A DNA stretch of 64,000 nt. It comes from [Phialemoniopsis] sp. UDSM-2020. Lineage: Eukaryota > Ascomycota > Sordariomycetes > Thyridiales > Thyridiaceae. Shown piece after piece: positions 895 through 15,932 of the stretch. Every line of letters begins with the position of its first letter. Position 1 is the first letter of the stretch. The DNA lies in NCBI GenBank assembly GCA_018873225.1, contig JAEILZ010000002.1, positions 1,178,001 through 1,242,000 of the forward strand, given 5' to 3'. The notes below the pieces were generated by a model, which ran no database searches, was not told where the DNA came from, and saw only the letters and a program-made list of their open reading frames with translations. Both the position numbers and the translations under genes were made by a program.

Positions 895-1371
895 GGTGAG
901 GTCTCAGCGGAAAGTCAATGGAAGTTGGGGGAAGTCATGTTTGCGGAGAGCTTTCGCCTCGCCACCCTAGATATGATGAGCTAGACTAAACCTGGGGTAT
1001 GCACATGGGATGTCGCCTTCTCGGCTTGTTAGTCGGCTTGCCCTGCATTGGCGTGGGGGGCAGTTAGATAATATAGGTGGTAGCGGCATTCACTCCGACG
1101 TCGAACCCGCTCCTCCAATGCACAGTGCTCTATCGGGACATTGACTTTCGAGGAGGGGTTCTGAAGATGCGGGATGGCTTCGTAGTTCTGCAATCATATC
1201 TCTTTTTGGAAGTCACTACACAGTTATCATGTTGGTAGCCGGACGGATATCGGTGAAGACTCCGGTGGGTGACTCTGATTCATGCCTCCTCTACTTATGT
1301 TTTACCCCTGTTCTGTGATGCGTCCACGATAGCACTCACACCGTACCGTCCTAGGAACCACTAGCATACAT
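895..1371. other. Intergenic, one motif-like site
   Basis: No gene is visible. The only notable sequence is GCGTGGGGGGCAG at 1051-1063, a variant of the cluster promoter element. It lies downstream of the aldolase gene and upstream of the small minus-strand gene. Confidence 0.5.
1050..1063 (+). promoter_or_regulatory. Variant of the cluster element
   Basis: Reads GGCGTGGGGGGCAG, three mismatches to AGCGTGGGGGTCAC. It lies about 160 bases upstream of the small gene starting at 894 (minus strand). It may be a weak site or chance; the G-run makes a chance match easier. Confidence 0.25.
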
Positions 1372-2322
1372 TTACTTTGTAGAAAGCGTCTTCTCAAACT
1401 CCATCAACTCTGCAAATCCACTTAGCTGCGCCTGCAAGGCCTTACCCTCCAGCGGCGCACAGGGCCTCCGAGGAAGTCCTCCGTAGCCTCGGTACTTTTG
1501 CAGAGCAGACTTGACAGCTACAAAACCACCTTTGATAGCGGCCCAATCGCCTCCGGCGACGATGCCCTGCAGCCGGGCTGCCTCGGCCAACTTGCCCTGC
1601 TCCCAAGCCTTGAAGAGCTGGATGCATGCTCGCGGTGCCAGGTTACCCGTCCCGGCAATGACGCCGTGCCCACCGACTGCCAGAGTCTGAATTGTAAAGT
1701 CGCAGCTTCCGCCAAACGTCCGGAACGCGGTGTCGACTGTACCAGCAGCAACTCTTGCCAGCTTTCCCGTGTTGCCACAGGTCAGCTTGACGCCGACGAT
1801 CTTGGGGTGTTGTGCGAGCTCGAGAATCAGATCGGATGTGAGATCTAGTCCGGACGTGGCACCAGGAAAGTTGTAGATCAGGATCGGGATGGGACTCGCG
1901 TCGGCGACGGTGATGAAGTGCTCCTTGATCAACTCCGTGGTGACAAGGCCCCCGTAGTATGCGGGAGGCAGGATCAGGGCGTGGGTGCCGCCTGATTCGG
2001 CAGCTTCTTTGCAGAGCTGGATGGTTTCCCTTGTCGACTGGGCACCGCACCCAACAATGAGGGGCAGATCGGACTTGCCGGCGTTGGCCATTGCTGTACG
2101 AGTAGCCTTGTTGACAATCTGACGCTCAGCATGATCAAGGTGAACAGCCTCGCCGTTGGAGCCGTGAGTTACAATGCCGGCGACTCCAGCCTCAAGGAGG
2201 AAGGTGGCATGGGCAATGGTTGTTTCCACGTTGATCTCGTCAGAAGAGTTGAAGAAGGCGACTGTTGGCACGTAGAGGCCAACGCCTAAGGGCTCCGACT
2301 GGCCTGGTGTCTTGGAGATCAT
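1372..2322 (-). CDS. 2-keto-3-deoxy-sugar-acid aldolase (DHDPS/NAL family, GaaC-like)
   Basis: A single-exon gene of 316 aa, full length for the dihydrodipicolinate synthase/N-acetylneuraminate lyase family of class I aldolases. Visible landmarks are GSNGEAVHL (54-62), the catalytic tyrosine in YNFPGATSG (Y150) and the Schiff-base lysine in IVGVKLTCGN (K179). The closest remembered relatives are the fungal L-threo-3-deoxy-hexulosonate aldolases (GaaC/LGA1), which split a 2-keto-3-deoxy-hexonate into pyruvate and glyceraldehyde. Beside a galactonate dehydratase, it is inferred to cleave 2-keto-3-deoxy-galactonate. Stereochemistry cannot be read from sequence. Two copies of the cluster element lie 256 and 491 bases upstream. 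Probably cytosolic, since no targeting signal is seen. Confidence 0.85.
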   Translation of the reverse strand: MISKTPGQSEPLGVGLYVPTVAFFNSSDEINVETTIAHATFLLEAGVAGIVTHGSNGEAVHLDHAERQIVNKATRTAMANAGKSDLPLIVGCGAQSTRETIQLCKEAAESGGTHALILPPAYYGGLVTTELIKEHFITVADASPIPILIYNFPGATSGLDLTSDLILELAQHPKIVGVKLTCGNTGKLARVAAGTVDTAFRTFGGSCDFTIQTLAVGGHGVIAGTGNLAPRACIQLFKAWEQGKLAEAARLQGIVAGGDWAAIKGGFVAVKSALQKYRGYGGLPRRPCAPLEGKALQAQLSGFAELMEFEKTLSTK

Positions 2323-2577: not shown

Positions 2578-2591
2578 ACGACCCCCACGCT
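2578..2591 (-). promoter_or_regulatory. Cluster promoter element (AGCGTGGGGGTCGT)
   Basis: The minus strand matches the consensus at the first 12 positions, with two mismatches at the end. It lies about 256 bases upstream of the aldolase start, in the orientation of that gene. Confidence 0.7.
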
Positions 2592-2812
2592 TCAATAAAT
2601 GACTTCAGGTACCAAGGGTGTAAGTACACACATCCGTACTTTCTTCGCCAATTTCCAGACTATTTTAGTGTGCTTACTCGCATCTAGCCTCCTCACAGGT
2701 CGGACTTTGTGCTTTCCCCTTTCCCCACTTGATATGTGGTCTGGTTCTTACGCTCTTGATACCGTTGATCCGAGTTTCCCCGTCAAGAGTAGCCATGATT
2801 AATCATGAGTCT

Positions 2813-2826
2813 GTGACCCCCACGCT
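2813..2826 (-). promoter_or_regulatory. Cluster promoter element (AGCGTGGGGGTCAC)
   Basis: A perfect 14-base copy on the minus strand, about 491 bases upstream of the aldolase start. Confidence 0.8.
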
Positions 2827-3185
2827 AGTTGGTGAAAGTTTCTGGAGTCCCCAGCCGTGGTCTAGGGGCTTCATGTTACTCCTCATGACACTAAGTGGAC
2901 TCGTCTGATCCATCGGGCATTGTTGCAAATGTGGAGAAGTAGCGGTGCTTTAACCGATCCCCTGGACTCGTGGGCCCTTTCTCGAGGTGTGTCCCTAAGG
3001 AAACCAATATCCGTGATTGAATTGTGTGGCCTCTATCCATGCATCGTCTAGGCTTTTAGTTGGAGGGAAATTGTATGCCCAGCCTCAAGTTAGACGAGCT
3101 AGGTAGATCCATTGTCAAAGTGTGCCAGATAGTTTGTAATATGTGTCGATGTCGGAGTACAAGCTACTTCTCTCTCTAAGTCCTT

Positions 3186-4997
3186 TTAATCTTCCTCCGG
3201 CTCCAGGTCTGCAAGTCCAAGGAAGAGGCAGGAGAGGCCCCAAGCTCCTGGGTCAGGCACTTTTGTGAACCCACTTCCTCCTACGTACACAGACCGCCCA
3301 AGGCTCGCGTGCATACCTTTCGTCTCTATCGCGGCTCTCCTTGCAGCCAGGGAAGCCTCTTTCAAGCTGCCAGTCTGTCCCAAGACTTCAACAAACGGGT
3401 ACAAAGCGTCTACTAGAGTACGATCTCCTGGACGTGCAGGTGTGTACTTTGACAGGGCATCACAGCTTTGCTTCAAAGCAGCAGCCCACTTCTGCGGTGA
3501 CATGGCACCTGATTCTTGGGATTGCAAGGCGTGGACAAGCGCGTTGAGAAAGATGGCATATAGCGCCCCTGAGGTGCCGTCCATGTTGTTCTCCACAACG
3601 GGCACGATCTCTGCTAAGTCACTAAGGACATCACCAGTAAGATTTGTTATGTTGATATACCTCAGCACAGCTAGTGAAATAAGTTAGTTGAGCTGTGTAA
3701 TGAATTCATGAGGATGGGGAAGCAAGGACTCACCTTCAGCTCCTCTCTTCAGTCCAATTCCGCAATCACCATCACCGACTACCGTATCGTACTTTGTGAT
3801 TACTGCCTCGGCAGCAATCACACGCTCAAGTGCCGTCGTCAGGGCAGATGTTTCTGTAGAAGCATCCATAGTCTGACCAGCGAGTCGTTTTCTTTGGTCT
3901 GTTTGCGTCAATCCAGTCCTGACTTGTGTGCTTTTGGCTTCCCACGTCGACTTCTGGATCGGTGCAGTCCAGCCTGGGACTTCGCTCGGGGCGTCAAGGA
4001 GGTCAATCATGCTGACTCCATCAGTGTCGACCGCATTCAGTAAGCTAATGCTGAATCCGAGACCGTTCAGGCTTGTCATGAACATGCCACTCAAGATCCT
4101 TGCAGGCTTGATATTGTAGCGAGACTTTAGCTGCGCCACGACCTCGGTCGTGATAGCGCCCATCTCAAGGACGCTGACACCACCGAGGTTGTTGATTAGA
4201 AGCACAACCTGCTGGGAACCGAAGCGAACGAAGGCACGGTCTTCATCGGATTGATCAAGGAGTTGGGCGAGCATCCTCTTCACAAGTTCGGGAAGGACGA
4301 TTTTATCTCTTCCAGAGCCAATCTCGTTGTGGATGCCCATACCAATCTCGACCTCGCCAGCCTGCAAAGTGTCTTCGGTACTGATCACCCGGCCCGGTAC
4401 GTGGACATGGTCGAGGCTCGCGCCCACACTGACCAGATTCTCTGCAGCTAGTCTCGCGGCCGAGGCAACAGCGTTGAGCGGCCTGCCCATCGCGGCCAGG
4501 GCACCGGCGATCTTGAGCACAAGAACAGTGCCCGCGATACCCCGCCGTCCGACCTTGCCGCCCTTGGCTCGGCCGACACCGGCATCGTCGCCGACGACGA
4601 CCATCTGCGCGTCGATGCCAGCCGCCCTAGCCTTCTCGACGGCCATGCCGAAGCTGAGGACGTCGCCGGTGTAATTCATCACGATGACGAGGACGCCCTT
4701 GTCAGTGTCGACGCGCGACGTGATGCCGACTCGGACTTGCGTCGCGGACGGGCTGGCAAAGATGGTACCGGCCACTGCCGCGGAGAGCATGCCTGGCCCG
4801 ACCATGCCGGCGAAGGAGGGCTCGTGGCCCGAGCCTCCTCCGGACAGGATGGAAACCTGCGAGGGGCCATCGTTGGGCCGGCGGTAGATGATTTTGTGCT
4901 CTTCATCGAGGGCAACGAGAGGGTTGACGAGTGTCAAGCTGTGCAGAGCATCTCCGACCAACTTGGTCGGGTCATCGACAAAGTGCTTGGTGGACAT
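3186..4997 (-). CDS. dak1: Dihydroxyacetone/glyceraldehyde kinase
   Basis: Two exons, 4997-3734 and 3670-3186, with a 63-base intron (GTGAGT..CACTAG, CTAAC branch site), give 582 aa, the usual length for one-chain fungal/animal dihydroxyacetone kinases. The DakK domain shows GGGSGHEP (53-60) and the HVHVPG segment that carries the covalent substrate histidine (around 197-199). The DakL nucleotide-binding domain shows GDGDCGIG, followed after the intron by a C-terminal DPGAWGL. It phosphorylates dihydroxyacetone and usually glyceraldehyde with ATP. Here it would feed the triose released by the aldolase into glycolysis. An in-frame ATG at 5042 would add 15 residues, but family proteins begin near MSTKHFVD. 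It diverges from the dehydratase gene across an 854-base shared promoter. Confidence 0.9.
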
Positions 4998-5184
4998 GGT
5001 GAAAATGATGATACGGAGAAGGGGTTGGTCACCAGCTTGCAATTTGGAGAGACTTGTAAGGGAAAGAACTCGGGATAAAGGAGAAAATGCGTTGACGGGG
5101 ATGTTTCTGACCCCGAGGATCTGTCGCTGCTTTCACGATGCTCCCGGCGCAACTGGGGAACGCCTACCACAGGGCACATTGCAG

Positions 5185-5198
5185 AGCGTGGGGGTCAG
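5185..5198 (+). promoter_or_regulatory. Cluster promoter element (AGCGTGGGGGTCAG)
   Basis: Matches 13 of 14 consensus bases. It lies 188 bases upstream of the kinase start. Confidence 0.8.
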
Positions 5199-5517
5199 AT
5201 TCGTTTTCAAGTCATACGTAGTGCTTCCTCCTTACGAGGAATCGCATGCGTGTTTTCCCAGGCCCAGGTCCGACTTGGTTCGGTATCACATCCAACCTCA
5301 CATCGGGAGCGCATCGCCAAGAGACTTTTCGTCGTTACGCCCTGATAGCATGGGCCCGGAGAAAACTTGACAAGTAGCCCATCAATAGTTTCACACATGA
5401 GTCGTAATCTTGCTCAAGCCCACCTTCCTGTGGATAATGACATGCATCATTGCAAGCTTCAAGTGAGAATCTGACCGACGATGTGCTATAATCCTAGAGC
5501 TTGAAGGAGCCGACGGT

Positions 5518-5531
5518 AGCGTGGGGGTCAC
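5518..5531 (+). promoter_or_regulatory. Cluster promoter element (AGCGTGGGGGTCAC)
   Basis: A perfect copy, about 320 bases upstream of the dehydratase start and 521 from the kinase start. A second perfect copy follows 98 bases later. Confidence 0.8.
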
Positions 5532-5615
5532 ATTGTGGGGAAAGTAAGCCCTTGAACCGTGCCGGCGTCTCGGGACCATGCGGGCAAGTCTTGGGCTGTG
5601 TTGCCCTGTAAGAAT

Positions 5616-5629
5616 AGCGTGGGGGTCAC
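5616..5629 (+). promoter_or_regulatory. Cluster promoter element (AGCGTGGGGGTCAC)
   Basis: A perfect copy, about 223 bases upstream of the dehydratase start and in the orientation of that gene. Confidence 0.8.
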
Positions 5630-5851
5630 AATTCAGGGCTTGGAGGACTTCGTCCAACTAGTGTCGAGTCCGGCTGTGGAGTACAAGAAATCCGAACACG
5701 GAGACATTGTGGAACGAGTCATGGGTAGCAATCCAGAAACGGTCCTCCTTACTCTGCCATATGCCTTTCACATCCTAATTCCTTGACTTGAGGGCTTCGT
5801 GATTACGCGGAGATAGTTACACCAGACACCACACTTGTCAAAGTCTTCATC

Positions 5852-7124
5852 ATGGCCAAGATTAAGACTGTCGAGTATTTCCGTGTGAAGCCAAGATGGC
5901 TCATGGTCAAGATCACCGATGAAAATGGCGAGTACGGCTGGGGTGAAGCCACTCTCGAAGGTCATGACCTTGCGGTTGAAGGTTGTCTGGAAGAGATGAT
6001 CACTCGCATTGTTGGCTTGGAAGCAAAGTAAGTGTCCCTTTTCAGGATGAAAACGACAGTTGTTCCCCGTACTAAATCGAAATCTCAGTGAAATTGAAAA
6101 CATATGGCAAACGTTCTGGAGGCATGGCTTCTACCGCGGAGGACCAGTCTTCATGTCCGCTTTGTCCGGCATTGACATTGCCCTGTGGGATCTGAAGGGC
6201 AAGGTGTTCAAGATGCCGGTCTACGAATTGCTCGGAGGCAAGGTTAGGAGCAAGGTGCAAGTCTACTGCTGGATTGGTGGTGACCGGCCGGCAGATGTGG
6301 AGCGGGCGGCGTAAGTTATTCCTCCCTCACTTTCAGTCAAATCGTCTGCTCACACCTAGATCAGGAAAGCTCGTGTTGCTCAGGGTCTCAAGCATGTCAA
6401 GATGAACGCCACCGAGGACATGAACTGGATTGATTCGCCCTCTATCCTCGACTCGACAGTTGAGCGTCTCAAGACCGTCAAAGCACTAGGTCTGGACGTC
6501 GGTCTCGACTTTCACGGCCGTCTGCACAAGGGTATGGCCAAGCAATTGGTCGCGGCTCTGGAGCCGCATCGCCCCCTGTTCATCGAAGAGCCACTGCTCT
6601 GCGAGCACCCAGAGGCGATCAAGCAGCTTGCAGACCGCACATCCATCCCGGTCGCTTTTGGAGAGCGCCTCTATACCCGCTGGGACATCAAGCGGTTCCT
6701 TCAAGACGCCAGTGTCGATATCCTCCAGCCGGATATCGCTCATGCTGGTGGCATCAGTGAGACGAAGCGTATCGCTCAGATGGCCGAGGCCTACGATGTG
6801 GCTATCGCGCCGCATTGCCCTCTCGGCCCGGTGGCATTCGCGGCTTCGCTGCACATTGGCCTGACTTGCCCTAATTTCACCATCTTGGAAATGAGCTTGG
6901 GGATGCACTACAACACCGAGGCTGGAGATGATATTGACCTGTTGACATACCTGAAAGACCCCGAAGTCTTTTCCATTGGTGAAGGCGGGTACATCAAAGC
7001 ACCGACAAAGTACGGGCTTGGAATTGAGATTGACGAAGAGAAGGTCAGAGAAATCTCAAAAGATACCAAGCCGTGGCAATGCAAGGTTTTCCACGGTCCT
7101 GATGGTAGCATCCGGGAGTGGTAG
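5852..7124 (+). CDS. D-galactonate dehydratase (DgoD type, enolase superfamily)
   Basis: Three exons, 5852-6027, 6089-6310 and 6365-7124, give 385 aa against 382 for E. coli DgoD. Similarity runs through the whole length: GFYRGGP, ALSGIDIALWD, GGDRPADV. The metal ligands are D181 (in LDFHGR), E207 (in FIEEP) and E233 (in AFGERLY). The catalytic histidines are H183 (DFHGR) and H283 (APHCPLGP). The numbering is offset by exactly two from DgoD. The enzyme removes water from D-galactonate to give 2-keto-3-deoxy-galactonate. The DgoD likeness, rather than a GaaB- or rhamnonate-dehydratase likeness, is what points to D-galactonate as substrate; another aldonate remains possible. Introns of 61 and 54 bases have standard borders. 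It lies next to the kinase and is probably co-controlled through shared elements. Confidence 0.88.
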
Positions 7125-7512
7125 ATAGTGGAGGCAGAAGACAATAAATTAAACAAGTTTGATAGATTTCATCTTGGTCTCTCAAACCGCCAAACTTGCA
7201 GGTCCTTGTGGAAATGCTCCTCCAGTATTGGATACCATCATAGTGTATTCTGAACACGGGTCTGGTGTTTATTGTGTTTTCTCGACAGGGTCATGAAAAG
7301 GAATTGTACGAACTCGCCTCGATCGTGGAAGCTGAGGTTCAAAGATATTTCTTAAAGAAAAAGAAAAAGAAAAGAAAAGAAAAAAAGAGCATATGGAAAT
7401 GTTCGAGAATCGGGAGCAAGCTATTAGAACGATCAAAGGTAGCAACCAGCAAATCAATTAAGAATATTCCTTCACGAATAGTACACAGGCCTGATCCAAA
7501 TTGCCTCCTTCA
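7125..7512. other. Convergent intergenic stretch
   Basis: This lies between the 3' ends of the dehydratase and the polyol dehydrogenase. Apart from an A/G-only tract near 7350-7390 I see nothing in it. It has no copy of the cluster element, as expected for a region without promoters. Confidence 0.6.
7355..7389 (+). repeat. Purine (A/G) simple tract
   Basis: A run of AAAG/AAAAG units with no pyrimidine interrupts the 3' intergenic region of two convergent genes. It is a low-complexity tract. Confidence 0.7.
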
Positions 7513-8715
7513 CTACGTATCTATCAATACCTTGATCACCAAGTTCCCTTCGTCGTCTGCCGGCTTTCCCGCCAAAGCAAAAGCGTTCGGAACTTGGTCC
7601 AACCCAACCGCACGATGCGTTGCCAACTTGGCGATATCTGGCAGTCCGTGCTTTGGCTTGTTTGCCAGGATCTCGATACCATACTTGTATGTATTTGAGT
7701 ACCTGAACACCCCAACCAGATCGACCTCGCGCAGCGCCGCAGCGGACACGGGCAACGTCTGAATCGGTGTGCCCATGCCGATAAGCAGCACTTTCCCTCC
7801 CGACGCTGTCGCATAGATCGCAGCTTGAACGCAGGCCTCGACACCCGTGCACTCGAACACAGCGTCGAACTGCTTGCTTTCGTCCCCACTGGCAGCTTTC
7901 AGCAGCACGGCTGCGGTCTCTCTTGCATGAGCCAGCTTGTCCTCGACCGTGGCCGTAGCCCCCGGTCCAGTCCGTGGCACCTCCACGCCCACGTCTGCGA
8001 ACCCGTGTGCTTTGGCAAAGTCGACACGGCTGCCAGCCACGTCCGCGATGGTGATTCTCTCCACATCGGCAGTGCGCAGCATCGCAGCGGTGAGCAACCC
8101 GACCGCCCCAGCGCCGAGAATCAAGACATTCGCGCCTTTCTCCAGCTTCGCCCGGCGAACGGCATGGATGGCCACGCTGAGGGGCTCCAGCAGCGCACCC
8201 TCGTCTAAGGACACCGACTCTGGGAGCTTGTGGCACCATTTGGCCGGGTGGTTGATGCGCTCTTGCAGCGTGCCCTGGAAGTGAGGGAATGACTTGGCTG
8301 AGCTCCGGAAGCGCATCTCGGAGCAGATGTTGTACCGCCCGGCCTCGCAGAGGCGGCAGGTCTCGCAAGGGATGCCCACCTCGAGGGCGACGCGGTCGCC
8401 GGGGCTGAAGCCGGTCACGCCAGACCCAACTGCTTCTACGACACCCGACGACTCGTGGCCCAGAGTCATCGGCTCTCGGATCAGGATGTCGCCATTGCGG
8501 AAATGGTTGTAATAGTGCTGATCCGAACCACAGATGCCGGTGCGGCGAACCGAGACTTGGAGTTCGCCTTCAGCTGGGGCCGAGATAGACAGCGTCTCCT
8601 GTCATTGATGTTAGCCAGTAAGTTTCAACCGAAGGGCTGACTATGTCTCACGTACAGTCCTAACGTCTCTCACACCATGAAGTTTAGAAGCAATGATTTG
8701 AGTTGCTGTCGCCAT
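7513..8715 (-). CDS. Zinc-dependent polyol dehydrogenase (MDR, sorbitol/xylitol dehydrogenase-like)
   Basis: Two exons, 8715-8656 and 8598-7513 (57-base intron, GTACGT..GACAG), give 381 aa. It has the full layout of medium-chain zinc alcohol/polyol dehydrogenases: a catalytic-zinc cysteine in GICGSD (C43), GHE (H68, E69), four structural-zinc cysteines (C98, C101, C104, C112) and a Rossmann motif GAGAVGLL. Such enzymes oxidise polyols such as sorbitol, xylitol, galactitol or arabinitol with NAD. In this cluster it could make dihydroxyacetone from glycerol for the kinase, or feed a polyol or sugar into the pathway. The substrate cannot be read from sequence. One perfect and one variant cluster element lie upstream. 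Confidence 0.85.
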
Positions 8716-8967
8716 CTTCGGAAGGAGACTCGATTTGGAAAGACGAGATAGGTAAAGTGGATGGAAGAGACAACAGGGTTCAAATGGCAGTACTACATGA
8801 AACAGGAGCGTCCGTTCATCAGCCAGCTCACCATCCCTGTGTTCAAGGCAGTCTTACGAGACGCATCCCTAGTATTCACTAACAAGCCCATCTCCTCCGA
8901 TTCCGGCAAAAGTACGCCGCCGTTCAAGAGTTCGGGGAGAATCGATGGGTCGTGATCCTGGGTGGAA

Positions 8968-8981
8968 GTGACCCCCACGCT
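8968..8981 (-). promoter_or_regulatory. Cluster promoter element (AGCGTGGGGGTCAC)
   Basis: A perfect copy on the minus strand, about 253 bases upstream of the polyol dehydrogenase start and in its orientation. Confidence 0.8.
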
Positions 8982-9098
8982 CGCCTGACTGCCTCTCTCG
9001 GGAATTCTCGTCGGATCTTAGCCGCAGTCCTTCGCTAGTAAACAAAATCGTGGAGTACTTGGAGGAGTGGATCGAGGAGGACAACGGCATCCCCATAG

Positions 9099-9112
9099 TG
9101 TACCCCCACGCC
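9099..9112 (-). promoter_or_regulatory. Variant cluster element (GGCGTGGGGGTACA)
   Basis: The core GCGTGGGGGT is intact but the edges differ. It lies 131 bases beyond the perfect copy, in the same orientation. Confidence 0.5.
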
Positions 9113-9280
9113 GGCATACACGAGGAAAAGGATCAAGTGGTCTTCATGTTGTGGACCCCGAGTGATGGCTGGTACACTGGAAGGAATTACCTTTGGACGT
9201 CCATCCATCAATGCACAAGAAGTTGCAACAGGTTTAGTTCGAAGCTAGATTCCTTGCCTAGGCTATGAGACTACCGTCTA

Positions 9281-10138
9281 TCATCGGCCCATCCAGCCAC
9301 CATCGACCGTAAGAATCTCACCACTAACGTAGCGACAAGCTGATCCGGCCAAGAACACCGTAGCCCCCTCAAAGTCCTCCAAGGCGCCCCATCTGCCCGT
9401 CGGGATCCGCTCTAGGATGCTAGCAGCTCGCTTCTCATCCTCGATCAGGGCCTCGTTCATGTCCGTGGCGATGTAGCCCGGCGCAATGGCGTTGACGTTG
9501 ATCCCATCGGCCGCCCACTGGTTGCTCAGGGACTTGGTTAGTTGGGCAACGCCGCCCTTTGCTGACGCGTACGCCGGTACGTTGAGACCACCCTGGAAAG
9601 AAACCAAGCTAGCCACGTTGATGATGGCACCCCGACGGCCGGTGGCATCTGCCGCTCGCTTGCGCATGTACGCGCCAAAATCGCGGCACAGAGTCCAGAC
9701 TGTCCGCAGATTGACTTGCAGAACCTAGGCCACAGTGTCAGTCACCAGGAAATGAAGTGAGTCATGAAAAGTGTCAGCTTATCAAAAACTTACCTCGTCC
9801 CAATCTTCCATCGGGAATTCGTGAGCCGGATGCCGCCTCTGGATCCCAGCACAGGTCACGAGTATGTCCACATCGTGACCATCAGCGAGTACTTTTTGGC
9901 TCAAAGCGGAAACGCTGTCTTGGTTGGCCAGATCGGCCGTGTACACAAAGACTTTGCGGCCCAATGCCTCGATCTTGTGCTTGGTGTCGAGGTTGCTCTC
10001 GTTTCGCTGGACGAGGATGATGTCGGAGCCTGCGCTAGCCAGGGCGAGGGCCATGGCCTGGCCAATGCCGCGAGTGCCACCCGTGACAATGGCCAGGTGG
10101 CCGTCAAGCGAGAACAGCTTCTCCAGGTAAGTTGCCAT
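9281..10138 (-). CDS. KduD-like short-chain dehydrogenase
   Basis: Two exons, 10138-9794 and 9724-9281 (69-base intron, GTAAGT..CCTAG), give 262 aa. This is a classical SDR with TGGTRGIG (19-26) and catalytic S154, Y167 and K171 (YASAK). The C-terminal half ([32 protein letters not shown]) closely follows bacterial KduD, 2-keto-3-deoxy-gluconate 5-dehydrogenase (often annotated 2-deoxy-gluconate 3-dehydrogenase). A role on a 2-keto-3-deoxy acid or a closely related sugar acid is inferred. It is not required for a plain dehydration-plus-cleavage route, so it may handle a second substrate or an epimerisation. One perfect cluster element lies 230 bases upstream. Confidence 0.82.
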
Positions 10139-10367
10139 GTTTGACCTAGGTATGTGGCATGAAAGAGAGGGTGTACACCGAATGGAACTGCAATGAACGT
10201 GTTCCCAGCGTCAAATAATCGAAAGTTCGCCAATTTTAATGACCTAAAGAGGGGTTACGGCTTTTGCTGTTCTCGCCTTGTTGTCCCAAAGTGGTCCAGT
10301 CGGCCGCTACTTGAATCATGGAAACTTAGCCTGGGCCAACTCTGAGGGAGCACAGAAAGTTGGAGTC

Positions 10368-10381
10368 GTGACCCCCACGCT
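10368..10381 (-). promoter_or_regulatory. Cluster promoter element (AGCGTGGGGGTCAC)
   Basis: A perfect copy on the minus strand, 230 bases upstream of the SDR start and in its orientation. Confidence 0.8.
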
Positions 10382-11499
10382 AAGCCGTCTCCACGAAGCC
10401 CTGAAGCCGCCGGCATCCACCCTGCATATGCAAGCCCCGGTAGTGCCATGCATGAACCGGTGGCTTCCGGGGTCACGCTGAGATGACATAATTTCTTCCA
10501 GGCAGGCATCACGAGAAGAACACATGCTCCTTGCCGTCATAGCTTTTACAGCTTGCTCTAATGCATAGCTTTTCAATCATCTCGTGCCGCAAAGTCCGAT
10601 GTTCATGACTCTCTGGATTAGTCACTTGTCTGGTTTAGGAAGTATCAGACGAAGGAAACATGGTTCGACCAAGCTGCCAAGGCACGTGTTCCGGCCTCAA
10701 GGAAGAAGGCAAAGGATACATCCTACCTTCTAGCTTTTGCTCGCTCGGCATCACATCCCAGCTCTCAGGCTTTCTCCTCAATGGTGGAAAAAGAAATTCC
10801 GTCCCACCTGTCCTGCTCTACAAAACGAGGTGAGATTTGTCACAGTGAATAGCTCTGCAATGAAAACCGGACATCCTCGGCCAGGCTGCGGACTGGCGCC
10901 GAGCCCTTGGATACGCACCGGGATCAGGGGCCAGAGCGTACGAGAGTGCCGGGTGTGGCTTTATGATACAAGGTCTGCGTCAAAATGGACAAGAAAACTG
11001 TAGTGAGACCCCGAGCTTGACACAAGATGATCTGGCCCAGGTATGTTTGACTGACATGGTTCTTTTGGTTGGTGTTGATGCATAGACCATCAATTCGGAC
11101 GTTTCATTTGCGGCGTCTCTGGTCTGGCCCATCATGGAGGTCTAGACATTTCTCTCCGCCGTATAGACTGGTTTTTCGAATTCTCATTGAGTTCCTGACT
11201 TATTATACCCAATGCCGAGTTTGCCGTAGTGCACATCTTGGTTGTGTCGATGTGATGAAGACGACGTATGTTCTGCCATTCTTAGCGATAGCAACATGAT
11301 CAGTAGTGTGCCTAGTAGTACGAGACGAGTTCTGGTGAAGAGGAAAAATTAACGTCTGTTTCCTTCTCCGCGGCGATCTGGTTCTTGTGCCGGCCACCGA
11401 GAGCCACGCAACGCTACTCCCCGGGTCCCCAAGCTTTGTCACCTGTGAAATTTTAAAGCTACATCCACCATGGTACCGGCATGAAGAGAACATCACCTG

Positions 11500-11513
11500 G
11501 TGACCCCCACGCT
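11500..11513 (-). promoter_or_regulatory. Cluster promoter element (AGCGTGGGGGTCAC)
   Basis: A perfect copy, about 481 bases upstream of the permease start and in the opposite orientation to that gene. It faces the next element 91 bases away. Confidence 0.8.
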
Positions 11514-11603
11514 CCATATCCCTCTACGAGTCTATGAGAGGAAGAAGGTCGGGGAATTCAGACTACCCCCTTAGTCGTAAATGCGAAGAATATGGGGACG
11601 AGG

Positions 11604-11617
11604 AGCGTGGGGGTCAT
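11604..11617 (+). promoter_or_regulatory. Cluster promoter element (AGCGTGGGGGTCAT)
   Basis: Matches 13 of 14 consensus bases. It lies 377 bases upstream of the permease start. Confidence 0.8.
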
Positions 11618-11993
11618 TCTCTGATGAGCAGAGCGGATTAGAGACTCCAAGTTTCCCCACATAGCTTTGAACTACTTGCTAGTCTCACACTCGCGCCCTT
11701 GGAATCCTAGTAACAAGACAATCCGAGTACCCCGTAAGACGGCTGGAGAAGTACCTTTTATGGCACTACTGGTCCTAGTCTGCAACTCATGTGCCACACA
11801 CTCTGGGGGAGGCCTTTCTGGGGCTAAAGGTTCCTGCATAAAAAAGACGTTCCCACGACTCAAAAACCTCTTGCTGCAAATGGGCTTCATCTCAACTCAG
11901 GTGCAATAGCCTTTTGAGTCCATCCCAACAAAACCTTTCTCAGTCAATTCCATCCTACATTTCCTAACTGTTCTTGCAGAACGGTTCTTTGCA

Positions 11994-13667
11994 ATGTCTC
12001 CCTCCAACACGGACATCAAGGCCGACACTGCCTCGGAGAGGGCTGAGAATGTCCAGCCCATCAACAAGGGCGAGATAGCTGGCACCATGATGCCAGAAGG
12101 ATTGGCTGTTCTGTCCGAAGATGAACGGGCAAAGCTCGGCAAGCGCGCGACCTTCAAGATGGACCTGGTGATCATGCCAGTCTTGGTCATCATGTACATC
12201 CTCAACTACCTCGATCGTCAGAACATCGCCAGCGCCAAGCTTGCCGGCATCGAGGCTGATCTCAAGATGACTCCCGTTCAGTATCAGACTGCTGTTAGCA
12301 TTTTATTCTGCAGCTACAGTATGTATCTTTAGGTCCAATATCTTCCACGAGCCGTTGACTGACAGTATTGTGCAGTTCTGTTCCAAGTCCCGTCGAACAT
12401 GATTGCGAGTCGGATCCAGTGGCCTGGAATCTATATTTGTCTCAGCATGGCTCTTTGGGGAGGCATCTCGGCCATCATGGCGTCTGTGCACAACTTTGCC
12501 GGACTGATAGTCGCCCGCATCTTTCTGGGAGCCGTAGAGGCCGTGTTCTTCCCTGGAGCCATCTACTTCCTCTCCCTGTTTTACAACCGCAAGCAGTTTG
12601 CTCTTCGGATGGCCATCCTGTACAGTGGATCCCAGCTGGGCAATGCCTTTGGTGGCTTGTTCGCGATTGGCATCTTGAAGCTTGATAATGCTCATGGCAT
12701 TGCCGGATGGCGATGGGTATGTGTGCCCGATTTCCAGAGCTTGATCATCCATATCTAACTCTCTGCCAGTTGTTCCTCGTCGAAGGCGTTGCCACCGTTG
12801 GTCTGGCTATAGTGTTCGCCCTTATCCTCCCCAACTCCAACAAGAAGATCCTCGGCCTCTCCAAGATCGAGTGCGACTGGGTCCAATGGAACTACGCCGT
12901 TGACCTGGGCCAGTCGGATGATTCGCGAGAGATCACCCCGATGCAAGGTCTCAAGATGGCTGTCAGAGACACCAAGACCTGGCTATTCACCGGCGTTCTC
13001 TACTGCGTGAGTCTTTCCCCTCTCCAAACTTTTCAACATCAAGGACCTCGGCTGACCACTCCCGTCCCAACAGACCTACATCGTCGGCGCCGTCTCCAAC
13101 TTCTTCCCCAGCGTCGTCGGCGGCCTGGGCTACAGCCGCAACATGACCTACCTCCTGACGGCGCCGCCCTTCCTCCTCTGCGTCATCTGCATGCTCGCCA
13201 ACGGCTTCCACTCGGACCGCACCCGCGAGCGCTCCCTGCACATCATCGGGCCCTTGTGCGTCACCCTCGCCGCCAACATCATCGCCGTCTCGACGCTCAA
13301 CATCGCCGCGCGCTACGTCGCCATCATGCTGCTTCCCGCATCGTTCTACGCCTCCACCATCGCGACCCTGTCCTGGATCACGGGCTCCCTGTCGCAGCCG
13401 GCGGCCAAGCGCGCCAGCGCTATCGCTCTGATCAACGCCATCTGCAACACGCCCAACATCTGGTGCAGCTACCTGTACTACAGCGCCCCGCGCTACCTGA
13501 CGGCGTTCATCGTCAACGTCGCCGCTACGGGACTGGCTATCGCTTTCGCCGTCGCCGCGAGGATCTACCTGCGCCGCCAGAACGCGCGGCTCGATCGCGG
13601 TGAGGACGGTGGAAAGCATGGCCCCACGCCGGCGCAGGTTGCATCTGGGTTCCGGTACATGCTATGA
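11994..13667 (+). CDS. MFS permease, anion:cation symporter (Dal5/TNA1) family
   Basis: Four exons, 11994-12318, 12376-12716, 12770-13006 and 13074-13667, give 498 aa with about 12 membrane segments and cytoplasmic ends. Family marks are NYLDRQNIASAKLAGI after the first helix, GAVEAVFFPGAIYFLSLFY and GWRWLFLVEG. The family moves organic anions such as allantoate, nicotinate and, in bacteria (DgoT), galactonate. Beside a galactonate dehydratase, uptake of an aldonate through the plasma membrane is the natural inference. Introns are 57, 53 and 67 bases with clear borders. Two cluster elements lie upstream, which ties it to the catabolic genes. The exact substrate is not shown by sequence. Confidence 0.88.
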
Positions 13668-14009
13668 TGCACCACGACATTGAGCATCTGGAGCTCTACT
13701 GGGAGCGGTGGTCTGTATGTGGGTGACTACTTCATGCCCAACTCCTACGTCTGCACAGCAGCAAGATCGAGAGTCGCTCTCGGAACCTGTGGTGGATGAA
13801 AATGTCTCCTAGCATGGGGTTTAGTGTATCTTAGACAAGTTTACTTGAATAGATCTGACGGTTCAAATGATGGCCAAGCAAGACACCGCAAAAGTTCTGT
13901 TATGCAGTCTTGGCTGACTCTGACTGATCCGACAACCGCTGCCTGCAGGTGGGGTTCTACCCTTTTGCCTTTCCCTCGTAACATTCTACCATTTCAGACT
14001 GCACGGACA
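13668..14009. other. Intergenic, permease 3' flank and HET gene leader
   Basis: No cluster element is present here, so the regulon appears to end with the permease. The HET gene frame is open upstream to 13824, but its conserved part starts later. Confidence 0.5.
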
Positions 14010-15932
14010 ATGGAATCAAAGTCTTTCACTTACACCGGCCTGCCACAGGGCCGAGTTTTTCGTCTGCTCAGAGTCCACCCAGGTCGCAACGATGATGAAC
14101 TCGTGTGCGATCTATTCACTTCTGAGATTGATACAGCCCCTCCGTACACCGCTTTGTCATATGTGTGGGGTGATCCGACCAAGAGCGCAGTCGTGACCTG
14201 CTCAGGCCACACCTGCAACATCACGCAGAGCCTCTCTGAAGGGCTTCGCCGTATCCGCAAGACCGATGAGGCCCAAATTGCCTGGGCCGACGCTATCTGC
14301 ATCAACCAAGATGACATTATAGAGAAGGGTCACCAGGTCAACCTAATGGGTGTGATTTACGACAGCGCCGGGAATGTACTCGTCTGGCTTGGTCCGGATC
14401 CAACTGATAGCGCAAGCGAGGCATTTCGATGCTTGCCGATCATCAACGATAAGATATGGACAAGGACTGACCAGGAATGGTATGTGCCAGCAGAGGAAGA
14501 TCTACCTACTCACCCCGTGGTCATGGTAGATAGCTCAGGAGAGAAGCACCAAATGTCCAAGCCGACTGCGCGGAGATCTGTCCTAGGCTTTGTCCTGGGT
14601 CCCCACGGCAAAGATGCCGTCGAGAAGCTCTTTGGCCTCACTTGGTTCTCTCGCGTGTGGGTGCTCCAGGAAGTCGGCCTGGCGACAACGGCCACAGCCT
14701 TCTGGGGGGACGCCAGTATCGATTTTGCAGAGATCGCTGCCTTCATCGCTAACGTATATGGCGAGGAAGACTTGAAGTATTTCTTGGGACCGGAGATCTC
14801 GGAAAGGCTATCTGGATCGCCTCTCTATGCGCTATGGAACGTCTGGTGTACGTATGGAAAACAGAACTCATGGGTGTATCGATCGCCCCTGCTCAGAGCA
14901 TTCGCTCAGCAGCTCGCGAATACTTGCGACATTGACTTTAATCTTGTACTTGAAGCCTCCAGATACTTCGATGCCACCAACGAATTGGACCATGTGTATG
15001 CGTTCCTCGGTCATCCCAAAGCAAAGAAGTCGGGAACAGATGAGACATGGCTACAAGTAGACTACGCTCTGAGCCTTCGGGAGCAACACCGACTACTGGC
15101 ATCCAGCATGGCAAAAGAATCTCTGAACTTTCTAGTTCAAGCACAACATACAGAAGAATCTCTGAGACTCGATTTCGAGTATCCATCTTGGGTGCCGAAA
15201 TGGAACGAGAAAACCGCAATGCACGCCGACGCCTTCTGGGAAGCATACGACGCAAGCGGCCGCAAAGAAGGACACGAATCGTTCGAAGCACACGTCGACG
15301 GAGATAGACTCTCTGTGTCTGCTATCATACTCGACACGATCGACAACTTCACGCCGACAATGGAAAAGTCCGGGTTCGAACCGATCGATATCGCCGGGGG
15401 CCGCCTCGTCGAGCAGTGTTGGGAAGTGGCGATACAGGAGCCCTGTCCCTACGGGGCCGAGGACGCCGTCAACGCCTTTGCCTCTACACTCACATGCCAC
15501 TACAAGAAGCGAGCCGGCACGCACAGTGCGGGCCACTCGGTCGTGGAGCAGCTCGCCGGGTTCTGCTACCGCGCCGACGTCAAGTTCTGGGCGGATGTCA
15601 AGGCTACGGGCGGTTTCTGGAATTTGGACACCACGCTGGTGGCGGGCAAGCTGTTTGGCCAACAATTCAAGGCGTACGGGATGAACCGGCGCTTCTTCAA
15701 TACCAAGCAGGGTGGGCTCTGGGGGCTGGGGCCGGCGGCTATGCAGCGAGGGGATGTCTGCGCGGTTCTCTTTGGGGCTGATGTTCCTTTTGTTCTGAGG
15801 CCTATGGAGGCGAAAGGCGAGTACAAGATTGTTGGAGAGTGTTATATGTACAAGTTCATGGATGGCGAGGCTGTTTTGGCGTGGAAGGGCGGGCAAGAAG
15901 GTTTCGTCAAGCAAGACATTGTACTGGTCTGA
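14010..15932 (+). CDS. HET-domain protein
   Basis: A single-exon gene of 640 aa from the ATG at 14010; the frame is open back to an ATG at 13824 (702 aa), but the extra residues look like leader. The HET domain occupies roughly residues 35-230, with the family's motifs YTALSYVWGD, WADAICINQDD, QVNLMGVIYDSA and, later, WFSRVWVLQEV. HET-domain proteins cause cell death when partner alleles differ (heterokaryon incompatibility) and are very numerous in filamentous ascomycetes; most have no known partner. The C-terminal two thirds shows no repeats of the WD or ankyrin kind. It carries no cluster element, so its place beside the sugar-acid genes is probably incidental. Confidence 0.88.
   Translation: MESKSFTYTGLPQGRVFRLLRVHPGRNDDELVCDLFTSEIDTAPPYTALSYVWGDPTKSAVVTCSGHTCNITQSLSEGLRRIRKTDEAQIAWADAICINQDDIIEKGHQVNLMGVIYDSAGNVLVWLGPDPTDSASEAFRCLPIINDKIWTRTDQEWYVPAEEDLPTHPVVMVDSSGEKHQMSKPTARRSVLGFVLGPHGKDAVEKLFGLTWFSRVWVLQEVGLATTATAFWGDASIDFAEIAAFIANVYGEEDLKYFLGPEISERLSGSPLYALWNVWCTYGKQNSWVYRSPLLRAFAQQLANTCDIDFNLVLEASRYFDATNELDHVYAFLGHPKAKKSGTDETWLQVDYALSLREQHRLLASSMAKESLNFLVQAQHTEESLRLDFEYPSWVPKWNEKTAMHADAFWEAYDASGRKEGHESFEAHVDGDRLSVSAIILDTIDNFTPTMEKSGFEPIDIAGGRLVEQCWEVAIQEPCPYGAEDAVNAFASTLTCHYKKRAGTHSAGHSVVEQLAGFCYRADVKFWADVKATGGFWNLDTTLVAGKLFGQQFKAYGMNRRFFNTKQGGLWGLGPAAMQRGDVCAVLFGADVPFVLRPMEAKGEYKIVGECYMYKFMDGEAVLAWKGGQEGFVKQDIVLV

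Follow-up and report, generated by a model that had tools for sequence, protein, structure and literature searches.

We have identified a 14-base element, AGCGTGGGGGTCAC, that recurs in a six-gene cluster of a filamentous ascomycete (genome of 44.18 Mb, 11 contigs). The element is, with high probability, the predicted site of one dedicated transcription factor, most likely an activator, that is encoded elsewhere and serves both this aldonic-acid cluster and a set of unlinked genes. Its sequence and placement, its near-confinement to the cluster and its presence upstream of paralogs of cluster genes are read directly from the assembly, and it probably marks the site of a switch protein controlling the pathway as one unit. 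The result is a regulon ready for testing, made up of a single DNA word, the six genes of the cluster and some five candidate targets unlinked to it, in which the element predicts which aldolase paralogs are co-regulated. The element can also serve as bait for finding the regulator of the aldonate pathway, for whose control we found no description in the open-access literature, and, should the inducer be found, such a near-exact site would lend itself well to use as an inducible promoter part. More generally, the reading of raw sequence proved able to pick out a genome-wide regulatory element.

Gene content and element copies of the cluster

The window, by which we mean the whole 64,000-nucleotide stretch of DNA that was analysed, contains the following cluster genes:

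1372..2322, minus strand: DHDPS-family aldolase, probably of the 2-keto-3-deoxy-aldonate aldolase type (316 aa, single exon; PF00701)
3186..4997, minus strand: dihydroxyacetone/glyceraldehyde kinase (582 aa, one intron at 3671-3733 in one of four models; PF02733 and PF02734; TIGR02361 above cut-off)
5852..7124, plus strand: D-galactonate dehydratase-type protein of the enolase superfamily (385 aa, introns 6028-6088 and 6311-6364; NF010624 at 509.8 bits, cut-off 311; 95% to a Thyridium curvatum protein)
7513..8715, minus strand: Zn-dependent sorbitol/L-idonate dehydrogenase-type protein (381 aa, one intron in one of six models; PF08240 and PF00107; best NCBIfam match L-idonate 5-dehydrogenase at 185.2 bits, below the cut-off of 469)
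9281..10138, minus strand: KduD-type SDR (262 aa, intron 9725-9793; TIGR01832 at 297.4 bits, below the cut-off of 338.85)
11994..13667, plus strand: MFS transporter, presumably of the anion:cation symporter type (498 aa, three introns; PF07690)

Protein records indicate that pairs of these genes also appear linked in other fungi, with apparent orthologous clusters in Thyridium curvatum (E0L32_011987 and 011989), Pseudogymnoascus (V501_00697/00698), Oculimacula (VTL71DRAFT_151/152), Aspergillus affinis and Pyricularia oryzae. The 13-mer AGCGTGGGGGTCA occurs eight times inside 8.8 kb of the window, and the full element is the 14-mer given above, with a 10-base core, GCGTGGGGGT. It is asymmetric and G-rich, and on neither strand does it contain CGG, the triplet that characterizes Zn2Cys6 sites of the AmyR, InuR, CLR and ClbR type. 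The copies in the cluster are as follows:

2578..2591, minus strand: AGCGTGGGGGTCGT, 263 bp upstream of the aldolase ATG (20.6 bits)
2813..2826, minus strand: AGCGTGGGGGTCAC, 498 bp upstream of the aldolase ATG (24.8 bits)
5185..5198, plus strand: AGCGTGGGGGTCAG, in the divergent promoter 4998-5851, at 195 bp from the kinase ATG, relative to which its orientation is opposite, and 660 bp from the dehydratase ATG (22.5 bits)
5518..5531, plus strand: AGCGTGGGGGTCAC, 327 bp upstream of the dehydratase ATG (24.8 bits)
5616..5629, plus strand: AGCGTGGGGGTCAC, 229 bp upstream of the dehydratase ATG (24.8 bits)
8968..8981, minus strand: AGCGTGGGGGTCAC, 260 bp upstream of the Zn-dehydrogenase ATG (24.8 bits)
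9099..9112, minus strand: GGCGTGGGGGTACA, a weak copy that retains the 10-base core, 391 bp upstream of the Zn-dehydrogenase ATG (14.0 bits)
10368..10381, minus strand: AGCGTGGGGGTCAC, 237 bp upstream of the SDR ATG (24.8 bits)
11500..11513, minus strand: AGCGTGGGGGTCAC, 487 bp upstream of the MFS ATG, in opposite orientation (24.8 bits)
11604..11617, plus strand: AGCGTGGGGGTCAT, 383 bp upstream of the MFS ATG (23.5 bits)

Each of the six genes thus has one or two copies upstream. All ten copies are intergenic (chance probability 5e-5, given 36.8% intergenic sequence) and have their nearest start codon at a distance of 195-498 bp, in agreement with the preliminary description, which had placed every copy between genes at about 190-520 bases from a start codon. 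The eight 13-mers that it reported (2813, 5185, 5518, 5616, 8968, 10368, 11500 and 11604) were all recovered at their positions. The convergent gap (7125-7512) lacks the element, as had been noted, and no copy with at most one mismatch occurs in the window outside the cluster, where none had been claimed. Two details were revised. The last base is C in six of the eight 13-mers (2813, 5518, 5616, 8968, 10368 and 11500) rather than in five, and of the two variants that at 2578 differs at 2 of 14 bases and that at 9099 keeps the 10-base core and differs at 4 of 14. A further weak copy, GGCGTGGGGGGCAG, lies at 1050 and scores 14.0 bits, equal to the 9099 variant. One CCGACGG, the sequence of the FUR1 site, stands directly before the 5518 copy.

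Distribution of the element in the genome

In 100 shuffles of the window, matches with at most one mismatch averaged 0.05 copies and never exceeded 1, versus the 9 observed. A search of the window for the 14-mer with three mismatches allowed was discarded as evidence; its 12 matches are near chance (shuffle mean 6.85, with 5 of 100 shuffles reaching 12), so the signal depends on near-exact copies. Genome-wide, 53 matches with at most one mismatch compare with 45 for the reversed control word, and the single-mismatch copies as a whole are therefore background. Exact 13-mers number 11 in the genome, eight in the cluster and three elsewhere, with none for the reversed word; the chance expectation for exact copies, derived from the one-mismatch control, is about 1.1. 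Among words of 7-10 bases present in at least three of the four promoter blocks, none unrelated to the element was similarly enriched.

Two of the three exact copies outside the cluster stand at paralogs of cluster genes. The third (C4:2892843) has no assignable gene, no Pfam domain having been found in the four neighbouring ORFs searched, and is taken as chance. A genome scan had been proposed as the means of distinguishing a regulatory site from a scattered repeat, and the scatter it reveals is uneven, with near-confinement to functionally related genes. The earlier suggestion that the element defines a regulon under a dedicated regulator is thereby supported.

The unlinked genes with the element are located at C1:6702835, C1:8111861, C8:1510171, C11:2804581 and C11:16-18 kb. 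The closest aldolase paralog (64%) has a full 14/14 match 280-358 bp upstream, and two further aldolase paralogs have one-mismatch copies 1.2 and 3.5 kb upstream, the latter on C8, where a 4-kb stretch was scanned. A transporter paralog, which ranks third by score among the other matches to the cluster transporter, is preceded by an exact 13-mer and a weak second copy. Matches with at most one mismatch within 5 kb upstream of the 16 other DHDPS loci number 3 against 0.08 expected, and pairs of the 10-base core no more than 1 kb apart outside the cluster number 2 against 0.11 expected, although the distance cut-offs were chosen after the data had been seen. Both core pairs lie upstream of transporter genes, one of which was returned by the search as a sugar-porter gene. 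When the upstream regions of unlinked and cluster genes were compared, they aligned at the element alone, over at most 23 bases, apart from short scattered words.

Many paralogs lack the element. At the aldolase paralog ranked third (C6) none is present in 2.5 kb, and at a threshold of at least 13 bits no copy was found in 7 of the 10 promoters scanned from the 16 other DHDPS loci, in three of the four other transporter promoters scanned or in any of the three other kinase promoters scanned. The 5-kb upstream regions of 13 further enolase-family loci and 8 further kinase loci are likewise free of the element.

Alternative explanations of the shared word

Every cluster copy contains GTGGGG, which matches SYGGRG and SYGGGG, and the copies could be carbon-catabolite-repression sites of CreA alone, their likeness being due to its consensus. 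The genome has a CreA ortholog (C7:1881421, fingers 98% identical), and the four promoter blocks, element copies included, hold 31 SYGGRG in 4.14 kb, a higher density than the 4.4 per kb found elsewhere. Two pairs of copies are spaced about 100 bp apart (5518/5616, 98 bp; 11500/11604, 104 bp), the others being single or further apart, and CreA favours adjacent sites (PMC7985698), taken here as pairs within 100 bp. We nevertheless consider this explanation improbable. CreA requires six bases, whereas the element keeps 13-14, and the N. crassa form, TSYGGGG, does not fit the element. The same source gives 2312 genes as up in an A. niger CreA mutant, a global reach that contrasts with a word nearly confined to one cluster. 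Outside the element, CreA-type sites are not enriched, at 21 in 4.14 kb (5.1 per kb) versus 4.4 per kb after position 14000. The preliminary description had argued that CreA fits the core yet does not explain 13-14 conserved bases, and we concur; because only GTGGGG fits and enrichment outside the element is lacking, CreA alone looks insufficient.

Binding by a pathway-specific repressor, with the inducer derepressing the genes, is somewhat less improbable but still unlikely. The sign of regulation cannot be read from sequence alone. Described fungal sugar-catabolic DNA-binding regulators are mostly activators, which counts against a repressor, and distances of 195-498 bp fit an upstream activating site better than a roadblock, without deciding the matter. 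A repressor, GaaX, does act in the related D-galacturonate system; in PMC6353982, however, it is described as repressing GaaR and not as a repressor bound to a DNA site. We give very little weight to the idea that the copies are what is left of a small repeat or mobile element or that they spread by recombination within the cluster. Exact copies are dense in one place, some pairs share 15-17 bases and one pair shares 23 (with one mismatch), but across nine upstream regions compared the similarity around the element ends within 23 bases. In addition, the element stands in both orientations and, within the cluster, only between genes, and copies elsewhere lie upstream of paralogs of cluster genes. 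Least credible of all is action in RNA, as part of a 5' leader. Of 14 strong copies (at least 17 bits, with the gene assigned by nearest start codon) 12 read toward their gene, an orientation that we also count in favour of a dedicated factor. Against a leader element, the distances of 1.2, 1.6 and 3.5 kb found at unlinked loci are longer than leaders usually are, the copy closest to the kinase gene lies antisense to that gene, and the two MFS copies are oppositely oriented.

Proposed regulation and comparison with known systems

Under control by a dedicated activator, the factor would turn on six clustered genes whose products would take up an aldonic acid and degrade it by a non-phosphorylative route. 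The MFS transporter would perform uptake, the Zn-dehydrogenase and KduD-like SDR would interconvert keto and hydroxy acids, and the D-galactonate dehydratase would carry out dehydration to a 2-keto-3-deoxy acid. The DHDPS-family aldolase would then cleave this acid to pyruvate and glyceraldehyde, with phosphorylation by the kinase following. Possible substrates are D-galactonate, D-gluconate or an unsaturated-uronate product, since the score of the dehydratase clears the cut-off of the galactonate dehydratase model but those of the Zn-dehydrogenase and SDR fall short of the cut-offs of their best models. The same factor is predicted to act on unlinked genes, namely three more aldolase paralogs, the transporter paralog and the sugar porter. 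By further inference the inducer may be a 2-keto-3-deoxy acid, because 2-keto-3-deoxy-L-galactonate is the inducer of A. niger D-galacturonate genes (PMC5488244). Under glucose, CreA would compete for the same DNA through the embedded GTGGGG.

The factor could be a C2H2 zinc-finger protein, as the site is asymmetric, G-rich and without a CGG triplet. No C2H2 or Zn2Cys6 match lies within 100 kb of the cluster among the candidates scored (150 of 811 Zn2Cys6 and 150 of 195 zf-C2H2). Inspection by eye of the ORFs of the window and 20 kb upstream revealed no recognizable regulator, Pfam having been run on the cluster genes and one upstream ORF. Selection by the finger helices of 25 C2H2 loci was set aside because no single candidate stands out. 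Several are two-finger proteins that we take to have GGG-type helices (e.g., C11:2667386, C7:1909898, C7:3183788 and C4:514399), and no copy scoring 13 bits or more lies within about 1.5 kb of any of the 25 loci. A more elaborate proposal, which we hold to be doubtful, is that a single unlinked multi-finger C2H2 regulator with a long, near-invariant asymmetric site senses 2-keto-3-deoxy sugar acids and commands several aldolases across chromosomes, unlike the Zn2Cys6 factors of other fungal sugar-acid pathways. Its 14 bases would double as a competition switch, bound by the regulator on sugar acid and by CreA on glucose.

Searches of the literature with words of the element gave no fungal promoter element among the titles listed, and GTGGGGGT combined with Aspergillus binding site led to aptamers only. 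The GaaR regulon for D-galacturonate in Aspergillus niger and Botrytis cinerea (site TCCNCCAAT) resembles the present system in having a motif upstream of catabolic genes and in that its inducer, 2-keto-3-deoxy-L-galactonate, is an aldolase substrate. It differs in that CCNCCAA has no match in the element on either strand, its reported site is shorter and less exact, and its Zn2Cys6 regulator is known, whereas none was found for the present cluster among the candidates scored. The Aspergillus form of the CreA/CRE1 consensus, SYGGRG, fits the GTGGGG core, but CreA/CRE1 combines a six-base site with a global regulon, and the present element spans 13-14 bases at a handful of genes. The A. niger RhaR motif, TG[CAG][GTA]GGG, is likewise G-rich and belongs to a sugar-catabolic regulator, but as TGVDGGG it has no match in the element on either strand; it occurs in 31% (3688 of 11717) of A. 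niger promoters (PMC5617896). The Trichoderma reesei FUR1 site for L-fucose, CCGACGG, is also the element of a dedicated sugar-catabolic regulator, but its sequence differs and has no match in the element, and FUR1 has been compared with XYR1, a Zn2Cys6 factor. Similar dehydrogenase/SDR chemistry on L-idonate, 5-keto-D-gluconate and D-gluconate is found in the A. niger D-glucuronate genes gluD-gluE and gluF. There gluD and gluE have one promoter in common, and the word "motif" does not appear in the main text of the gluD-gluE paper. That route phosphorylates D-gluconate, whereas the present cluster brings dehydratase, aldolase and triose kinase together.

Distribution of the element within the cluster

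All eight AGCGTGGGGGTCA words reported by the preliminary description were recovered at their reported positions in the window, and six of them, rather than the five described, share the last base C. Copies with at most one mismatch numbered nine in the window, compared with a mean of 0.05 in dinucleotide shuffles of it. The variant at 2578 differs from the 14-base element at two of 14 positions, and that at 9099, GGCGTGGGGGTACA, retains only the 10-base core. A previously unlisted copy equals the 9099 variant in its score against the element matrix:

Window 1050-1063, plus strand: weak copy GGCGTGGGGGGCAG (14.0 bits), upstream of a small minus-strand ORF at 477-866

This ORF is a candidate for a seventh regulated gene, although the copy could also be due to chance. 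All ten cluster copies are intergenic, although only 36.8% of the 12.3-kb span is (chance, 5e-5), and their distance to the nearest start codon is 195-498 bp. When assigned by nearest start codon, each of the six genes has one or two copies, and three occupy the divergent kinase/dehydratase promoter. Of 14 strong copies in the cluster and elsewhere, twelve point toward the nearest gene. By word counting, the element was the sole strongly enriched word in the cluster promoters, with its fragments topping each list. Two other features were observed there:

Window 2794-2807: perfect 14-base palindrome CATGATTAATCATG in the aldolase promoter, five bases from the 2813 copy
CGGGGTC: four occurrences, in three of the four cluster promoter blocks (4998-5851, 8716-9280, 10139-11993), and none in the 50 kb after 14000

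CGGGGTC could be a weaker half-form (GGGGTC) of the element.

Cluster genes and their linkage in other fungi

Gene models were built by script, with one of several possible introns picked for the kinase and the Zn-dehydrogenase. Annotation was performed using Pfam, NCBIfam (five proteins, transporter excluded) and PDB (four of six proteins).

Annotation of the six cluster genes
DHDPS-family aldolase: PF00701
Dihydroxyacetone kinase: TIGR02361, above cut-off
D-galactonate dehydratase-type protein, enolase superfamily: NF010624, 509.8 bits (cut-off 311)
Zn-dependent dehydrogenase: nearest model L-idonate 5-dehydrogenase, score below its cut-off
KduD-like SDR: 297.4 bits, under the cut-off of 338.85
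MFS transporter

Taken together, these identities suggest that an aldonic acid is imported and degraded by a non-phosphorylative route, ending in pyruvate and glyceraldehyde phosphate. Immediately after the transporter gene lies a further frame:

Window 13800-15932, plus strand: long ORF, presumably resembling a HET-domain protein

In the window search, the stretch separating this ORF from the transporter gene was free of element copies.

Judging by protein records, these genes appear to be linked in other fungi as well. In Thyridium curvatum the dehydratase (95% identical) and the aldolase (87%) have locus tags that differ by two, and their contigs are of equal size; the high identities make the host a probable relative of this species. 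In both Pseudogymnoascus sp. and Oculimacula yallundae, the dehydratase and the Zn-dehydrogenase carry consecutive locus tags. Reading equal contig size as the same contig, among the matches listed eight contigs were common to 120 dehydratases and 120 aldolases, two to dehydratases and 117 dehydrogenases, and two to aldolases and dehydrogenases. In one Aspergillus affinis record the dehydratase is fused to an SDR that shares 68% identity with that of the cluster, and in one Pyricularia oryzae record an SDR is joined to a Zn-dehydrogenase; both resemble annotation errors, which would disclose the order of the genes.

Genome-wide distribution and trans copies

The genome scan proposed in the preliminary description found the element concentrated in the cluster, which holds eight of the 11 exact 13-mers in the 44.18-Mb assembly; about 1.1 exact copies are expected genome-wide by chance, and the reversed word, used as a control, had none. 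With at most one mismatch there were 53 matches versus 45 for the reversed word, and single-mismatch copies are therefore background on the whole. For the 10-base core, the comparison was 80 versus 54.

Two of the three exact copies elsewhere lie at paralogs of cluster genes. The copy at C1:6702458 (14 of 14 bases) is 280 or 358 bp, depending on which of two possible starts is used, upstream of the best aldolase paralog (64% identical). That at C11:2807494 precedes an MFS gene by ~1.6 kb, with a weaker copy in between; this gene shares 42% identity with the cluster transporter and is its third-best-scoring match outside the cluster, a rough rank, as introns split many loci. Single-mismatch copies at C1:8110549 (1.2 kb) and C8:1506488 (3.5 kb) are upstream of two further aldolase paralogs (51% and 55% identical, respectively), and the third-ranked aldolase paralog (C6) has no copy in 2.5 kb. 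Within 5 kb upstream, a limit set after the pattern was already visible, the 44 non-cluster matches include three at the 16 other DHDPS loci (0.08 expected), one at 20 transporter loci (0.10 expected) and none at 13 enolase-family and eight kinase loci.

A matrix scan of 18 stretches placed copies of at least 19 bits in three of 10 DHDPS promoters (of the 16 loci; the C8 aldolase gene required a 4-kb stretch), in one of four transporter promoters and at an orphan site. None occurred in three kinase promoters (best, 12.9 bits), and 129 kb of background (the window after 14000 plus 25 C2H2 loci) contained no copy of at least 13 bits.

As a partly independent check, core pairs no more than 1 kb apart were sought outside the cluster; just two were found (0.11 expected). 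One lies at the C11 transporter paralog. The other, chosen on pairing alone, is C11:18336/18738 (11.4 and 17.2 bits); it lies upstream of a series of reading-frame pieces, three of them matching Sugar_tr, and we infer that the first piece, with a presumed start, belongs to the same putative sugar-porter gene.

C11:15001-19000: sugar-porter pieces close to one end of the contig, preceded by element-like copies and adjoined by an ORF that encodes a cyclic-nucleotide-binding domain

DHDPS-family and enolase-superfamily genes are also paired at C9:793003-802597, C10:1257336-1259499 and C10:3313799-3316942. The first has a C2H2 match ~5 kb away, and a 10-base core at C10:1264262 is ~5 kb from the second. 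No match with at most one mismatch lies within 50 kb of any of the three, and the element is therefore no general mark of sugar-acid genes.

Nature of the element

The copies might be a repeat, but alignments around the element among nine upstream regions stop within 23 bases, and the other matches are short scattered words. Paralog promoters have diverged with the element retained; judged by their flanks, the copies are not a repeat. CreA would explain the GTGGGG within the element but nothing beyond it, and the cluster promoters show no enrichment of CreA-type sites apart from the element copies, so that CreA alone is unlikely to account for the copies. The simplest reading is a site for a dedicated DNA-binding regulator, as the preliminary description had proposed, and both the genomic confinement and the shortfall of CreA agree with it. 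As far as sequence can show, it is a genuine cis-regulatory site serving a small aldonate regulon, and probably binds an activator.

The element is asymmetric and lacks CGG. Such a site would be more typical of a C2H2 protein than of a Zn2Cys6 dimer. No regulator candidate stands out among the 150 of 195 zf-C2H2 and 150 of 811 Zn2Cys6 first-look candidates scored. Among other motifs tested, drawn from parts of four papers (PMC5468973, PMC7985698, PMC5617896, PMC12370193), none matches the element. The sharing of the element by several aldolases suggests that the genes are induced by a 2-keto-3-deoxy acid, in analogy to the D-galacturonate system in A. niger (PMC5488244). The copies of the element are unusually exact, and its trans targets are useful.
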